Assembly: GCF_000769655.1 (NCBI RefSeq) | Contig: NZ_CP008887.1 | Coordinates: 868,001-932,000 of the forward strand | Direction of reading: 5' to 3' | Origin: Thermococcus eurythermalis | GTDB lineage: Archaea > Methanobacteriota_B > Thermococci > Thermococcales > Thermococcaceae | DNA: 64,000 nt | Shown: positions 1 to 6,359 of the stretch, piece by piece | Layout of the letters: every line of letters starts with the position of its first letter | How positions within the stretch are numbered: the first letter of the stretch is position 1 | Translations under genes and position numbers: made by a program | Notes under the pieces: generated by a model | The model's input: only the letters and a program-made list of their open reading frames with translations | The model's database searches: none | What the model was told of the DNA's origin: nothing

Positions 1-1745
1 CAGCGCTTCGCTTCTTCAAGGACCTGCTCCTCGGTTAGGGCCGGCTCGACCTCCTCGAAGGTTCTCTTCCTCTTTTCCGGATCGAGGAGCTTCACCTTCG
101 CCCTCGGCTTTCTTTCGACATGCTCATAGTCCTTCTCGGTGACCCTCTTCCAGTGGTTGTAGGGTCTAAGGTCAAAGAGAACGTTATAGAGGTCGTCGTC
201 GCTTAGGACTTCCTCTATGTGCTTCTCGGGCTCGGTGAGAACGGCTTTGGCCTTCTCAAGCTTGCCTTTAAGATACAAGTCTATCATTATCGCGGCCCTT
301 CTTCCGGTGGCTATGCTCTCGATAACCGTTGACGGCCCGAGGACGAGGTCGCCGCCGGCGAAGACACCGGGAACGCTCGTCTGGAGCGTCACCTCATCAA
401 CGAGGGCCTTTCCGCGCCTCGCCTCAATGCCGAGGCTCTTCAGGAACTCCTCGTCGCAGTACTGGCCTATCGCCAGGATAACGTTGTCGGCCTTGACCCT
501 GAACTCTGAGCCCTCTATTGGTATCGGCCTCCTCCTTCCGCTTGAATCTGGCTCGCCGAGGCGCATCTTGACTAGCTCTACCTCCTCGACCTTCCCGTCT
601 CCGATAATCTTCACCGGATTGGTCAGGAACATGAACTCGACGCCCTCTTCCATGGCCTCCTCGACTTCCCTCTCGTTGGCGGGCATCTCTGCCTTCGAAC
701 GGCGGTAGACGACTGTGACCTTTGCACCGAGCCTCAGAGCCGTCCTCGCAACGTCCATGGCCGTGTTTCCGCCGCCGACGACTATGACGCGCTCCCCGAG
801 CTCGACCTTTTCGCCCATGTTAACCTTCCTGAGGAACTCTATTCCGTGCATGACACCTTCAAGCTCCTCGCCCGGAATCCCCATTTTCCTGCTTCTCCAG
901 GCCCCGACGCCGAGGAAGACGGCATCGTACCTCTCGCGGAGCTCCTCAAGGCTTACGTCCCTTCCGAGGGCGGTGTTGGTCTTCACCTCTATGCCTGTGT
1001 TTATCACTGTCGCAATGTCCCTGTCTAAGACGTCCTTCGGGAGCCTGTAGGGCGGAATGCCGTAGCGCATCATTCCTCCAAGTTCCGGCATCGCCTCGAT
1101 TATCGTGACCTCGTGGCCCTTAAGGCGGAGGTAGTAGGCGCACGCTAATCCAGCGGGCCCTCCTCCGACGACGGCAATCCTCTTTCCGGTTGAGGGTGGA
1201 ATCTCAGGCATCCACGGGCCGTGCTCGAGGTCGTAGTCAGCGGCAAAACGCTTGAGCTGCCTTATCGCCAGCGGTTCATCAACGAGGTTCCTCCGGCAGG
1301 CGTCCTCACAGAAGGCCGGGCAGACCCTTCCGAGAACAGCCGGCAGGATGTACTTCTCCTTCATCAGCTTGACCGCCTCGTGGTACTTGCCCATCGCTAT
1401 GAGTGCGAGGTATCCCTGAACGTCGCTGTGGGCCGGACAGGCATCCTGACAGGGACCGATACAGTCGCCGTAGTGGTTGGATAAGATGAGTTCAAGCGCC
1501 GTCTTCCTCATCGAAACGACTTCATCGGTGAGTGTCTCTACCTCAAGCCCCTCCACTGGCTTGAGGGTGCACGAGGTGGTAACCCCTCTCTTAGTGGAGA
1601 TGAGGCAGAGCCTGCAGGAGCCGTAAGGGTCAAGCTCTTCATTGTAGCAGAAGCCGGGCACGTGGCCCATCTCGCGGAGGAGCTCTATGAGCGGCCTCCC
1701 TTCAGGGGCCTCGACTTCCTTTCCGTTGACCTTGATTTTGACCAT
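1..1745 (-). CDS. GltD/NfnA-like FAD-dependent oxidoreductase with N-terminal 2Fe-2S domain (3' end outside the window)
   Basis: Read directly from the minus strand; at least 581 residues, with the C-terminus running off the left edge. An N-terminal plant-type [2Fe-2S] ferredoxin domain has Cys33, Cys44, Cys47 and Cys59. A GltD-type cluster region follows (CIGPCQDAC near residue 95, then VCPAFCEDAC), and then two dinucleotide folds: GGGPAGLACAYYL for FAD and VVGGGNTAMDVA for NAD(P). An FAD-closing motif PGVFAGGD comes later. It is the last of three co-transcribed genes: ATG lies one base after the NuoF-like stop, with a GGGGGTGAG ribosome binding site. With NuoE- and NuoF-like partners this matches NfnABC/Bfu-type bifurcating enzymes that exchange electrons between NAD(P)H and ferredoxin. 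That role is inferred; a plain NADPH oxidoreductase is the alternative. Confidence 0.85.
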   Translation of the reverse strand, partial: MVKIKVNGKEVEAPEGRPLIELLREMGHVPGFCYNEELDPYGSCRLCLISTKRGVTTSCTLKPVEGLEVETLTDEVVSMRKTALELILSNHYGDCIGPCQDACPAHSDVQGYLALIAMGKYHEAVKLMKEKYILPAVLGRVCPAFCEDACRRNLVDEPLAIRQLKRFAADYDLEHGPWMPEIPPSTGKRIAVVGGGPAGLACAYYLRLKGHEVTIIEAMPELGGMMRYGIPPYRLPKDVLDRDIATVINTGIEVKTNTALGRDVSLEELRERYDAVFLGVGAWRSRKMGIPGEELEGVMHGIEFLRKVNMGEKVELGERVIVVGGGNTAMDVARTALRLGAKVTVVYRRSKAEMPANEREVEEAMEEGVEFMFLTNPVKIIGDGKVEEVELVKMRLGEPDSSGRRRPIPIEGSEFRVKADNVILAIGQYCDEEFLKSLGIEARRGKALVDEVTLQTSVPGVFAGGDLVLGPSTVIESIATGRRAAIMIDLYLKGKLEKAKAVLTEPEKHIEEVLSDDDLYNVLFDLRPYNHWKRVTEKDYEHVERKPRAKVKLLDPEKRKRTFEEVEPALTEEQVLEEAKR

Positions 1746-1746
1746 C

Positions 1747-3549
1747 TCACTCACCCCCTGCATCGACTATCTCTATGGCGTTGAACCGGCAAACCTCGTA
1801 GCACGTCCCGCACTTGATGCACTCCTCCTGGTTGATAACGTGGGGCTTGAGCTTCTCGCCTTTGATAGCTTTCACCGGGCAGAATATGGCACATGCAGTA
1901 CAGCCGGTGCACCTGTCTGCGATGATGACGTACTTGATGAGCGGCTTACAGACCTTGGCCGGGCACTTCCCTTCGATGTGCGCCAGGTATTCGTCCCTGA
2001 AGTAGCGGAGCGTCGTGAGGACGGGGTTTGGAGCAGTCTGCCCGAGACCGCAGAGAGAGCCGGCTTTGACCTGATAGGCGAGCCGTTCGAGCTTCTCAAG
2101 ATCTTCTTCAGTTGCCTCGCCCCTCGTGAACTTGTCAAGGATTTCCCACATCCTCTTGGTGCCAAGGCGGCAGAAGGTGCACTTTCCGCAGGATTCCTTC
2201 ACAGTGAAGTCGAGGAAGAACTTGGCAACGTCCACCATACAGGTGTCCTCGTCCATGACGACCATTCCACCGCTCCCCATTATCGCACCTGTCGCCGTAA
2301 CGCTCTCGTAGTCAACGGGCGTGTCGAAGAGATATTCGGGAATGCAGCCTCCGGAGGGGCCGCCGAGCTGGACGGCCTTAATCTTCTTACCCGTCTTCGT
2401 CCCACCGCCTATTTCGTAGAGTATCTCCCTCAGCGTCATTCCCATCGGAACTTCGACGTTTCCGCCGTGCTTTATCTTGCCCGACAGGGCAAAGACCTTC
2501 GTTCCCTTGCTCTTCTCGGTTCCTATCGAGGCGTAGGCCTCCCAGCCGTGCTTGATTATCCACGGCACGTTCGCCCACGTTTCCACGTTGTTGATGTTGG
2601 TGGGCTTGCCCCAGAGGCCCTTCTGGGCCGGATAGGGCGGCCTCGGCCTCGGCATCCCGCGCTTGCCCTCTATGGAAGCTATCAAAGCTGTTTCCTCACC
2701 GCAGACGAACGCTCCAGCACCTTCCTTAATGACGATGTCGAAAGAGAAGCCAGAACCAAGGATGTTCTCACCGAGGAAACCCCTCTCGCGCGCCTGCTTC
2801 AGCGCTATCTTCAGCCTCCTTATGGCCAGCGGGTACTCGGCACGGACGTAGATGAAGCCCTTCGTCGCTCCAATCGCGTATGCACCGATTATCATACCCT
2901 CAATGACGCGGTGCGGGTCGCCCTCAAGGACGTTCCTGTCCATGAAGGCTCCGGGGTCGCCTTCGTCGGCGTTGCAGATGACGTACTTCTCGTCTCCTGG
3001 AGCTTCCCTCGTGAACTTCCACTTCAGCCCGGTCGGGAACCCTGCACCGCCCCTTCCCCTGAGGCCGGACTTCGTAATGATGTCTATAATCTCCTCCGGC
3101 TTCATCTTGAGGGCCTTTTTGAGGGCTTCATAGCCTCCAACAGCGATGTACTCGTCTATGTTCTCGGGGTCGATGTAGCCGGAGTTTTCGAGCACTATCT
3201 TTTTCTGTTTGGCGAAGTAGCCGTCAACGTCCCACGTCTTCCTCTCGCCGTTCTCCCACCAGTCGCGCTTGACAATCCACTCTTCTATGGGCTTTCCGTT
3301 GATAACGTGCTCCTCTATGATCCTGGGGACCTTCTTGGGGTCAACGTGGCCGTAGGTGATTATCTCCTCATCGGTGATGATGTCCACGAGGGGCTCGCGG
3401 TAGCACATGCCAACGCAGCCTACTATCTTGAGCTTGATGTCGAGGTTTCGCTTCTCAAGCTCGGCCTTTATGGCAGCGTAGGTTTCCCTCGCGCCCGCCG
3501 CTATTCCGCAGGAGTTCATGCCGACTGCAATGGCCTTAATTTCAGACAT
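1747..3549 (-). CDS. NuoF/HydB-like flavoprotein subunit (FMN, NADH site, multiple Fe-S clusters)
   Basis: 600 residues. The N-terminus is a thioredoxin-like [2Fe-2S] domain (SCGIAAGA and GCVGMC). The NuoF core follows: GRGGAGFPTG (FMN), CNADEGDPGAF, GAGAFVCGEETAL (NADH site), and the 4Fe-4S set ESCGKCTFCRLG with a later Cys in GSLCGLGQ. The C-terminus adds a two-cluster ferredoxin domain (CTGCTACAIFCP and CIKCGTCYEVC). This layout is that of HydB/BfuB subunits rather than of respiratory complex I. It overlaps the upstream NuoE-like gene by 8 bases and almost touches the GltD-like gene, so the three are one operon. It probably oxidises or reduces NAD(P)H and passes electrons to the partner flavoprotein. 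The long open frame on the other strand (1687-3567) is a shadow. Confidence 0.93.
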   Translation of the reverse strand: MSEIKAIAVGMNSCGIAAGARETYAAIKAELEKRNLDIKLKIVGCVGMCYREPLVDIITDEEIITYGHVDPKKVPRIIEEHVINGKPIEEWIVKRDWWENGERKTWDVDGYFAKQKKIVLENSGYIDPENIDEYIAVGGYEALKKALKMKPEEIIDIITKSGLRGRGGAGFPTGLKWKFTREAPGDEKYVICNADEGDPGAFMDRNVLEGDPHRVIEGMIIGAYAIGATKGFIYVRAEYPLAIRRLKIALKQARERGFLGENILGSGFSFDIVIKEGAGAFVCGEETALIASIEGKRGMPRPRPPYPAQKGLWGKPTNINNVETWANVPWIIKHGWEAYASIGTEKSKGTKVFALSGKIKHGGNVEVPMGMTLREILYEIGGGTKTGKKIKAVQLGGPSGGCIPEYLFDTPVDYESVTATGAIMGSGGMVVMDEDTCMVDVAKFFLDFTVKESCGKCTFCRLGTKRMWEILDKFTRGEATEEDLEKLERLAYQVKAGSLCGLGQTAPNPVLTTLRYFRDEYLAHIEGKCPAKVCKPLIKYVIIADRCTGCTACAIFCPVKAIKGEKLKPHVINQEECIKCGTCYEVCRFNAIEIVDAGGE

Positions 3550-4012
3550 CGAGCTTCCCCTCCCTGAGCTTTCTCATCAGCTTCCTGACCTTCTCGGGCG
3601 TGAGCTTGCCGAAGACCTTGTCGTTTATCATTATGACCGGCGCTAAACTGCAGCATCCGAGACAGGCGACGCGCTCCAGCGTTACGAGACCGTCCTCCGT
3701 CGTTTGCCCTTCCTCAATCCCAAGCTCCTCGGTTATGGCCTGGGATATGTTCACGGCGCCGTTTACGTGGCAGGCCGTCCCGTGACAGATTTTGACGACG
3801 TACTTCCCGAGGGGCTCGAAGCGGAACTGGGCGTAGAAGGTGGCGACGCCGTACACCCTGCTGAGCGGGACACCGAGGTAGTTCGCAATCTCCTCAAGGG
3901 CCTTCCTGGGAAGGTAGCCGAACTTTTCCTGCGTTCGCTGGAGAAGAGGAATGAGGGAGCTCGGTTCCGGGGGATATGAGTGGATGTAGCTAAGGTCATC
4001 ACCCATCTGCAT
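3542..4012 (-). CDS. NuoE/HydC-like [2Fe-2S] subunit
   Basis: About 156 residues and the first gene of the operon. The thioredoxin-like [2Fe-2S] ligands are in CHGTAC and ACLGCC, spaced as in NuoE. The N-terminal helical part (LIPLLQRTQEKFGYLP) is typical of the family. The start is ambiguous: GTG 4018, ATG 4012 and ATG 4006 are in frame, and GTGGTG could serve as ribosome binding site for 4006. Together with the NuoF- and GltD-like genes it makes a soluble electron-transfer complex. A TATA box and an extended SurR-type site lie upstream, so sulfur-responsive control is likely. Confidence 0.92.
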   Translation of the reverse strand: MQMGDDLSYIHSYPPEPSSLIPLLQRTQEKFGYLPRKALEEIANYLGVPLSRVYGVATFYAQFRFEPLGKYVVKICHGTACHVNGAVNISQAITEELGIEEGQTTEDGLVTLERVACLGCCSLAPVIMINDKVFGKLTPEKVRKLMRKLREGKLDV

Positions 4013-4050: not shown

Positions 4051-4060
4051 TGTTTATAAG
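4051..4060 (-). promoter_or_regulatory. TATA box of the NuoE-NuoF-GltD operon
   Basis: The minus strand reads CTTATAAACA, about 40-48 bases before the candidate starts. It is preceded by a purine/C-rich stretch where a BRE would sit. Spacing fits an archaeal promoter with a short leader. Confidence 0.6.
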
Positions 4061-4077
4061 GGTGCATCAAAGTACAA

Positions 4078-4100
4078 GTTTGTAACAAATGGTTGGCAAC
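4078..4100. promoter_or_regulatory. Extended SurR-type site (GTTn3AAC n5 GTTn3AAC)
   Basis: Two 9-bp palindromes, GTTTGTAAC (4078-4086) and GTTGGCAAC (4092-4100), are separated by exactly five bases. This is the extended GTTn3AACn5GTT motif known for SurR, the redox-sensing regulator of hydrogen and sulfur metabolism in Thermococcales. It lies about 18 bp upstream of the minus-strand TATA box, a position compatible with activation. On the other side lies the decayed sulfhydrogenase, whose family is a classical SurR target. Confidence 0.65.
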
Positions 4101-4130
4101 CATCTGTTTAGAAGCTTCGCCTTTCACGGC

Positions 4131-4398
4131 GGAGAGGAGGTCAGGGACGAAGGCTTGAGACACCTCAAGAAGTTCGAGGAGAAGCGCGCGAAAGCCTTCC
4201 AGAAGGAGCTCCCGCAGGAAGGCCCCGCCGACATGCTCGATTTAGCGTACAACAGCCAGGTGTGAAAGAAGTACGCCGAGGTATGCCTGCCCGCGACAAC
4301 GGCAACATGGTCTGTCCGACGTGCCGCTGCTACGAGGTCTGCGACCGCTGGTTGACGCGTACAGCTCCGCCAGGGGGAGGTGCTACGACTCGTGCTTT
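4131..4398 (+). pseudogene. Remnant of sulfhydrogenase beta subunit (HydB/ShyB)
   Basis: Conceptual translation gives RHLKKFEEKRAKAF, then an in-frame TGA (4262-4264) in place of an expected Trp before KKYAE. A frame change follows, then CPTCRCYEV, another frame change, and GRCYDSC. These blocks, in this order, match the middle of the cytosolic sulfhydrogenase beta subunit (FEKRRQQAF, CPTCRCYEV, RRWDSC in P. furiosus). The cysteine-rich stretch before CPTCRC is damaged. There is no intact start and no continuous frame. The remnant runs straight into alpha-subunit sequence, so the rest of beta and the gamma and delta genes are gone. Confidence 0.8.
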
Positions 4399-4885
4399 AT
4401 GGTCGGTTCACTGGCAAGACTACTCCTCAAGTCGGAGATGCTCACCCCTGAAGCAAAAGGCTATTCGAGGAGCACAGGGAGAAGCTTGCCACTGGATACG
4501 TCAGCTACAACAACCTGGCCCCGGCGATAGAGCTGGTCTATGCCCTTGAGCGGGCTAGGAGATAGCGAAGACTCTCCTGGATAGAGGCATCGAAGGGGAG
4601 AACGTCCCCGTTGAACCCAGGGAAGGCGAGGGTATCGGCTACGTTGAGGCACCGAGTGGAGTCCTCATACACCACTACCGCACCGACTCGGACGGCAAAA
4701 TAGCGTACTCAAACATCATAACGCCCACCGCCCTAAACCACGCGATGATGGAGGCCAGCCTGCTGGAGGAGGCGAGGAAGCTCTACGGAGAAGTCGATGA
4801 GCGGGCCATGATGCATCGCCTTGAGGAGACTATAAGAGCCTTTGACCCGTGCATCTCCTGTTCTGTGCACCTGGTACGGCTTTGA
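4399..4885 (+). pseudogene. Remnant of NiFe sulfhydrogenase alpha subunit (HydA/ShyA), C-terminal part
   Basis: Starting at MVGSLARLLLKSEML, frames must be switched to continue with YNNLAPAIELVYALERA, then EGIGYVEAPSGVLIHHY, NIITPTALNHAM and finally FDPCISCSVHLVRL with a stop at 4883-4885. These are group 3 NiFe-hydrogenase large-subunit blocks, including the distal DPCxxC metal ligand motif. The N-terminal half with the first CxxC ligand pair is missing and at least two frameshifts are present (near 4460 and 4560). It cannot make an active enzyme. It is joined directly to the beta-subunit remnant. Confidence 0.85.
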
Positions 4886-4893
4886 TGGGGGAT

Positions 4894-4932
4894 ATTTTGC
4901 AAATTTTTTATTTTGCAAATTTTTACAAATTC
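4894..4932 (+). repeat. Tandem AT-rich repeat upstream of the DUF257 operon
   Basis: ATTTTGCAAATTTTT occurs at 4894-4908 and again at 4910-4924, and a weaker third copy (TTTTTACAAATTC) follows. Each core contains the palindrome TTTGCAAA. The repeats end about 10 bp before a TATA box. They could be an operator. The T-runs could also end transcription from the hydrogenase side. Confidence 0.5.
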
Positions 4933-4941
4933 TTGGAAAAC

Positions 4942-4950
4942 ATTTATATC
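4942..4950 (+). promoter_or_regulatory. TATA box of the DUF257 operon
   Basis: ATTTATATC lies about 34-42 bases before ATG 4984. The ribosome binding site is GGTGAGAGGT. Confidence 0.55.
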
Positions 4951-4983
4951 CGCTCACGACAACTCTATAGCAAGGTGAGAGGT

Positions 4984-5655
4984 ATGGAATGGAAAAAGGT
5001 GGCCGAGATAGTTGATGCCATCTTTCCAGGGGAGACTGTTCTCGTGAAATATTCGACTTCATATATCCCAGAGTTTCTCCTGAGGTTCTTTGTAGAGCAC
5101 ACTTCAGAGCGGAACATATCCTTGGTTATAGATGATGACTTTGATGCCCTTTACAAGATACTCACCCATGCGGAGTGCATTGGCCTAACGATAGACCTGA
5201 ACAGGGACAATGTTTATGTCCTCAAAACCGGTGGAAAATTCAAGGTCGGAAACGTTGTGGCAAACGTCCCCTTCAACACGGACTCTAGGGTATACCTAGC
5301 CAATTATGCTGCAGCAAGCTCTAAAGTCTTTCAGGAGATACCTTCGACATCAATAAACCTGGTTCTCGGCCTGGAAGACCTGTTTCTATCCATGGAAAGT
5401 CCCCTCGATGTGTATCAGATGGTGCTCCGCGTGCAAAAGTTCCTAGGAAACGAGAAAAGGAAAGCTTTCTACATAGTAAATGAGGAAGTCATGGAGAGCC
5501 TTCCTGTGAAAATTCTAGGAGAGCTCGAAAGGATTGCTACCACAGTCATAAGACTCATCCCGTACCACACAGGTGCCCGCGTCCAGGTTCTGAAGAGTAT
5601 AAACCCGCACTTAATGGGGGTGGAAGCTGGGATAGACATAAGGGGGTGGGACTGA
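4984..5655 (+). CDS. DUF257 family protein (first of a tandem pair)
   Basis: 223 residues, using ATG 4984 behind GGTGAGAGGT rather than the in-frame upstream start at 4849. The body (FPGETVLVKYSTSYIPEF near the start, VIRLIPYHTGARVQVLKSI near the end) fits DUF257, a family largely confined to Thermococcales with no assigned function. No signal peptide or membrane segment is seen; alternating hydrophobic strands suggest a soluble alpha/beta fold. Its stop overlaps the start of a paralogue (TGATG), so the two are translated together. An EF-Tu-domain-2-like small protein follows in the same operon. Confidence 0.75.
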   Translation: MEWKKVAEIVDAIFPGETVLVKYSTSYIPEFLLRFFVEHTSERNISLVIDDDFDALYKILTHAECIGLTIDLNRDNVYVLKTGGKFKVGNVVANVPFNTDSRVYLANYAAASSKVFQEIPSTSINLVLGLEDLFLSMESPLDVYQMVLRVQKFLGNEKRKAFYIVNEEVMESLPVKILGELERIATTVIRLIPYHTGARVQVLKSINPHLMGVEAGIDIRGWD

Positions 5656-6359
5656 TGAACTCTCTAGAGCGGCGAGTTATGATAACAAAGGAGAACATTG
5701 ACATCATATTTGATTACTTACTGTCCGGAGACGTTGAAGTAATAGAAAACAGTGCCATTCTCGGAGTAGAATTTGCCCTTCACATGTTCATGGAGTACTC
5801 CAAGCGTCGGGGCGTTCCCTTGATAGTGGAAGATATCTTCGATACCCTACCTGTGTATCTCACTCACTTGAGATTCTTGGGAGTTAACTTTGAAGACCTG
5901 GACATGAAAGTCATAAAAGTTGGTGGAAGCCAAGATGCCGGCAACGTGGTCGCGAGGGTTCGTTTTGAAACAGACCCATTGATTTATCAGAGGAAAATCG
6001 ACCAAAAGTTGCAAAAGATAATCCCAGACGGGAAATACATACACCTCGTGCTCGGCCTGGAAAGGCTTCTCTCCATCCAAAACAACCCCCACATGATCCG
6101 CGCTGTCTTGTCTTCGATACGGCAGAAATTAGGTGAGAAAGACGGAATGAGCGTTTATATCCTGGAAAAGCCTTTGGCCAAAAACCCACTCTTTAATCCA
6201 CTTCCTATGCTGGAGGACCTCGCTACCTCTGTCATAGAGCTGGTGGATGAGGGAGCTGGGATTATCGGAGTCTATCTAAAGAAGTCCCGTCTGGCTCTGC
6301 TGATGAACACCCAGCGTCTCCTAATCTCCCCTCGGGATGTCGTTGGGTGGTGGGAGTGA
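5655..6359 (+). CDS. DUF257 family protein (second of a tandem pair)
   Basis: 234 residues. ATG 5655 overlaps the previous stop; a GTG at 5646 is possible but would overlap more. It is colinear with the upstream paralogue: VYLTHLRFLGVN against LYKILTHAECIG, GGSQDAGNVVARVRFETD against GGKFKVGNVVANVPFNTD, and LVLGLERLL against LVLGLEDLF. The pair is a diverged tandem duplication, perhaps forming a heteromer. Function is unknown. Confidence 0.72.
   Translation: MNSLERRVMITKENIDIIFDYLLSGDVEVIENSAILGVEFALHMFMEYSKRRGVPLIVEDIFDTLPVYLTHLRFLGVNFEDLDMKVIKVGGSQDAGNVVARVRFETDPLIYQRKIDQKLQKIIPDGKYIHLVLGLERLLSIQNNPHMIRAVLSSIRQKLGEKDGMSVYILEKPLAKNPLFNPLPMLEDLATSVIELVDEGAGIIGVYLKKSRLALLMNTQRLLISPRDVVGWWE

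Follow-up and report, generated by a model that had tools for sequence, protein, structure and literature searches.

A probable SurR operator at the Nfn-Bfu promoter of Thermococcus eurythermalis, present where the neighbouring sulfhydrogenase II has been lost

The SurR-type array and the operon behind it

In the window analysed here (the whole 64-kb stretch of the Thermococcus eurythermalis genome), a minus-strand oxidoreductase operon is preceded by repeated half-sites that resemble those of the redox regulator SurR, which raises the questions of whether SurR controls this operon and for which gene such a site has been kept. The preliminary description of this DNA had reported two GTTn3AAC palindromes five bases apart, and both are exact: palindrome 1 (GTTTGTAAC) occupies 4078-4086 and palindrome 2 (GTTGGCAAC) 4092-4100, with a spacer of exactly 5 bases. 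It had stopped at this doubled site; a further GTT at 4106-4108 forms a fifth half-site, conserved like the others, and extends the site to 4108; the start that it gave, 4051, belongs to the TATA box. The full array, GTTn3AACn5GTTn3AACn5GTT, covers 4078-4108 with no strand assigned (GTTTGTAACAAATGGTTGGCAACCATCTGTT on the plus strand) and has five half-sites, a 14-bp period and 15 fixed bases. GTTn3AAC (short) and GTTn3AACn5GTT (long) are the published SurR motifs (PMC8595942, PMC12162507), and the presence of either in the promoter is a mark of a SurR regulon target. Judged by geometry alone, a 14-bp period rotates successive palindromes by about one third of a helical turn, and several dimers could wrap the duplex.

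The doubled pattern GTTn3AACn5GTTn3AAC is found as a single exact copy in the window, where a dinucleotide model expects 0.002 copies by chance (0.00006 for the five-half-site array), and three times in the whole 2.13-Mb genome. Across the 61 genomes of the genus, the pattern is about as frequent as its backwards control. The motif alone is therefore weak, and position and conservation carry the case.

The operon encodes a predicted bifurcating enzyme, Nfn-BfuCBA, and Pfam and NCBIfam matches of bfuC, bfuB and bfuA show that its first assignment to a NuoE-NuoF-GltD class was right. bfuC (3542-4006, minus strand) codes for a NuoE-like [2Fe-2S] thioredoxin-like subunit (Pfam PF01257, E 6.4e-55; NCBIfam NF005722 above cut-off) and likely starts with the ATG at 4006, behind GGTGATG. 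bfuB (1747-3549, minus strand) codes for a NuoF-like FMN/NADH subunit with SLBB and two [4Fe-4S] motifs (Pfam PF01512 and PF10589; 509 bits against NCBIfam nuoF_fam, under that family's cut-off), and bfuA (1-1763, minus strand) for a protein of 956 aa that joins a GltD-like NADPH-FAD domain to a NuoG-like Fe-S domain; it leaves the window at base 1 and is complete at L034:2393-5263. This is the architecture of type 1 Nfn-Bfu (clade 53), in which a core of BfuC and BfuB is joined by a BfuA with Fe-S domains and an NADPH-FAD domain resembling the one in the NfnAB large subunit. The same three subunits (NuoE-like, NuoF-like and GltD plus NuoG-like) make up the Nfn-BfuABC of Thermococcus sibiricus (Tsib1517-1519), which has been purified and characterised, and whose bifurcating NADH/Fd/NADP activity has been assayed (PMC9304861). 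That paper deals with the enzyme and with how it alternates with NfnAB; a whole-word search of it returned no mention of SurR. The regulator itself is encoded in this genome next to pdo (L038:646-1347): the protein scores 401 bits against NF047699 (cut-off 250), carries the N-terminal CxxC (a CTEC motif) and aligns end to end with the solved P. furiosus PF0095, of which it is a close relative.

Conservation of the promoter and loss of the hydrogenase

We compared 46 homologous promoter regions, 45 of them with bfuC in view and one cut by a contig edge, which shows just the array and the hydrogenase side. All 15 fixed bases are kept in 37 of the 46 loci and 14 of the 15 in the other nine, which share an identical GTT to GTG change and belong to G034 and to members of two other genera. 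Among 31 distinct arrays, pairwise divergence is 2.4% at the fixed bases as against 53% in the spacers. The doubled motif, which the preliminary description had suggested looking for in orthologous promoters, thus passed decisively, and conservation over three genera is what a SurR regulon target should display. The TATA box of the Nfn-Bfu promoter, TTATAAAC, lies at 4052-4059 on the minus strand; as first estimated, the array is 18 bp upstream of it, and this gap is unchanged in 46/46 loci, with TTATAA at the same offset in each. No GTTn3AAC was found in the 45 bp downstream of the TATA box in any of the 46 loci. A site upstream of BRE/TATA with none downstream places the promoter in the SurR-activated class, although this assignment does not settle the sign of control. 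In addition, a second conserved element, GTACTTTGATGCAC (consensus GTRCTTTARTGCAC), was recognised by column conservation between array and TATA box (4062-4075, minus strand). It occupies the same place in other Nfn-Bfu promoters and is conserved nearly as well as the SurR bases; a genome-wide search returned one other place within 1 mismatch and no regulon, and the element is possibly the site of a second factor or an unusual BRE.

In most relatives the array lies between Nfn-Bfu and a divergent sulfhydrogenase II (SHII) operon, whose ShyB and ShyC score above NCBIfam cut-offs, and the SHII core promoter, a TTTAAG block when read on the Nfn-Bfu strand, adjoins the array. The initial interpretation had the type of site, its position class and the enzyme class right, but it missed this usual bidirectional Nfn-Bfu/SHII element. 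In the window the SHII core promoter and the 5' half of shyB are deleted, and tblastn and blastn against the intact shyB of L037 reveal a pseudogene remnant at 4134-4402 on the plus strand (about residues 182-271 of SHII beta), which is interrupted by a TGA in frame and by frame shifts. The blastn match to the intact locus breaks off at 4113, picks up again over 4162-4402 and then ends; the genome is without SHII and keeps the SHI paralogue alone. The deleted region is followed by a tandem pair of related genes coding for about 240-270 aa (4849-6359); similar-looking gene pairs are seen at L034:868-2224, downstream of bfuA, and in another SHII-less genome, G014 (L079), where the pair is upstream of Nfn-Bfu.

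SHII is absent from five genomes with Nfn-Bfu (G000, G011, G014, G037 and G045), which represent four separate losses on the bfuC tree (built from this one gene, about 460 bp, and weak at some nodes). Each of the five retains 15/15 fixed bases, and in a simple string test the TTTAAG block was present in 39/41 SHII-bearing loci versus 0/5 SHII-less ones. Between SHII-less G011 and its SHII-bearing neighbour G015 the spacers are strongly different but the fixed bases are not. Because the array is intact after four independent losses of SHII, with the TTTAAG block gone, it was most likely kept for Nfn-Bfu itself.

NfnI and Nfn-Bfu in the slot beside SHII

In a set of 94 genomes, 44 carry Nfn-Bfu, 25 carry NfnI (orthologues being proteins with 77% identity or more to that of G013), 25 carry neither and none carries both, an overlap of zero whose probability is 3e-9 on the assumption, which does not hold, that genomes are independent. 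Such lack of co-occurrence with NfnI in Thermococcaceae is a further feature of type 1 Nfn-Bfu (clade 53), and the present genome lacks NfnI and carries just a divergent NfnAB paralogue (L035). Mutual exclusion of the two enzymes has been noted before (PMC9304861), and published SurR sites exist for SHII and for NfnI; new here is that the slot beside SHII is common to NfnI and Nfn-Bfu. Of the NfnI genomes examined, all but one have NfnI and SHII in divergent orientation; the exception has no shyB in view. In the SHII-NfnI intergenic regions of G013, G016 and G028 the half-sites are as far from the SHII TATA as in loci of the type described here, and the SHII side is homologous, also in the SHII promoter of T. 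barophilus, which holds a listed long SurR site (PMC12162507, Table 2). These regions differ in that the partner is NfnI, in lacking one of the half-sites on the partner side (G013, G016 and G028), and in being without the GTRCTTTARTGCAC element, unlike the Nfn-Bfu promoter.

Four NfnI genomes of genus g4 combine both arrangements: their array and neighbouring element are still of the Nfn-Bfu-promoter type, and a newer TATA box lies about 100 bp further down. This relic upstream of the newer NfnI promoter suggests that Nfn-Bfu was replaced by NfnI in g4, a direction of exchange that we infer from it. Retention of the array and the relic upstream of a separate NfnI promoter was seen at L102-L105 and L111, in the g4 NfnI genomes and in G093. 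On balance we lean towards a SurR-controlled bidirectional promoter beside SHII having served as a fixed slot, in which the unrelated bifurcating transhydrogenases NfnI and Nfn-Bfu displaced one another in Thermococcaceae and the array stayed, even after loss of the hydrogenase. The preliminary description, correct on the type of site, had overlooked this history, both the shyB remnant and the alternation of NfnI with Nfn-Bfu. The four SHII losses and the exchange of enzymes at one slot amount to natural experiments, which bear on how regulation survives exchange of the enzyme that it serves.

Proposed control and competing readings

Taken together, these data point to the array being a SurR operator through which reduced SurR controls, and most likely activates, Nfn-Bfu in the absence of sulfur, a sequence-based reading to which we give a probability of roughly 0.8; we infer SurR binding, its redox response and the preference for activation over repression. 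Without S0, dimers of reduced SurR would bind the sites phased at 14 bp, directly upstream of the Nfn-Bfu TATA box, and most likely switch on bfuCBA, whose product would keep NADH, NADPH and ferredoxin in balance while cells grow with hydrogen production. Once sulfur is present, SurR would be oxidised at its CxxC and leave the DNA, and expression would change. In this genome, where SHII is deleted, the operator would have been retained for Nfn-Bfu alone. Promoters of the known SurR regulon (mbh, SHI, SHII, mbs, surR/pdo and NfnI/II/III) have the same GTTn3AAC or GTTn3AACn5GTT sites adjoining BRE/TATA and share with Nfn-Bfu the theme of electron flow and the sulfur switch; they have one long motif, whereas the array here has five phased half-sites. 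In the openly readable literature searched we found no statement of Nfn-Bfu as a SurR target and no expression data for its operon with or without sulfur; an earlier report in subscription papers is possible.

Given binding, we hold activation to be fairly probable, because the array lies upstream of the TATA box and, under the published rule, SurR sites upstream activate and those downstream repress (PMC12162507). The activation without sulfur that was first proposed fits this rule, but the responses of NfnI to S0 run the opposite way. SurR could instead bind the array and repress Nfn-Bfu without sulfur, in which case the enzyme would be induced along with the sulfur-reducing genes. This we regard as possible but rather unlikely. 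Elsewhere NfnI (SuDHI) takes this divergent slot, and in both P. furiosus and T. onnurineus it is reported to rise on S0 (PMC6981617, Table 2); Nfn is listed under negative SurR control (PMC8595942). The NfnI pair of T. onnurineus is mixed, TON_0057 being up on S0 in line with repression and TON_0056 showing the opposite trend (PMC4463584). Against repression, NfnI is a different gene with its own TATA box, and at Nfn-Bfu the array is wholly upstream, at the position published for activation, and none of the 46 loci has a site just downstream of the TATA box. In T. kodakarensis, a 2017 study by Hidese reportedly found that SurR represses one ferredoxin:NADP oxidoreductase via sites paired upstream and downstream, and that it activates a second one from an upstream site. 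The sign of SurR control of Nfn-Bfu becomes a clean bench question.

Other readings dispute SurR or Nfn-Bfu itself. Other ArsR-type regulators exist in Thermococcales, SurR binding is a prediction and a second, unexplained conserved element adjoins the array, so the site might be read by another ArsR-type or so far unknown regulator; we think this improbable, as the array exactly matches both published SurR motifs and their spacing, the SurR gene is present and the SHII side is a listed SurR promoter. Still less credit, and indeed strong disfavour, goes to the proposal that the array serves the SHII hydrogenase only, with Nfn-Bfu a passive neighbour and the copy here a leftover. SHII does have a listed SurR site, and the shyB fragment still has 87% nucleotide identity, so that its loss may be recent, but the retention of 15/15 fixed bases through four losses, the fate of the TTTAAG block and the G011 spacers, far from those of G015 around unchanged fixed bases, speak against it; an SHII-only operator was rejected on that retention. 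The probability that the array is a chance occurrence of a low-information motif is close to nil: although genome-wide counts are not above the backwards control, the array is conserved at a single fixed place in the promoter throughout 46 loci from three genera, which rules chance out. The comparative evidence, hard to explain otherwise, ties Nfn-Bfu to the sulfur/hydrogen switch of the Thermococcales.

Lastly, both other doubled sites of the genome lie outside the window. One (G000:C1:59872-59894; L001, L035) is upstream of the NfnAB paralogue, which is about 45% identical to the FAD/NAD-binding subunit of NfnI, and a doubled site is thus common to two of this genome's NAD(P)H/ferredoxin enzymes. 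The other (G000:C1:774423-774445; L002) stands ahead of a putP-like sodium/solute symporter; its palindrome 2 contains the TATA-like GTTTATAAC, and similar sequences are present in many genomes of the genus.
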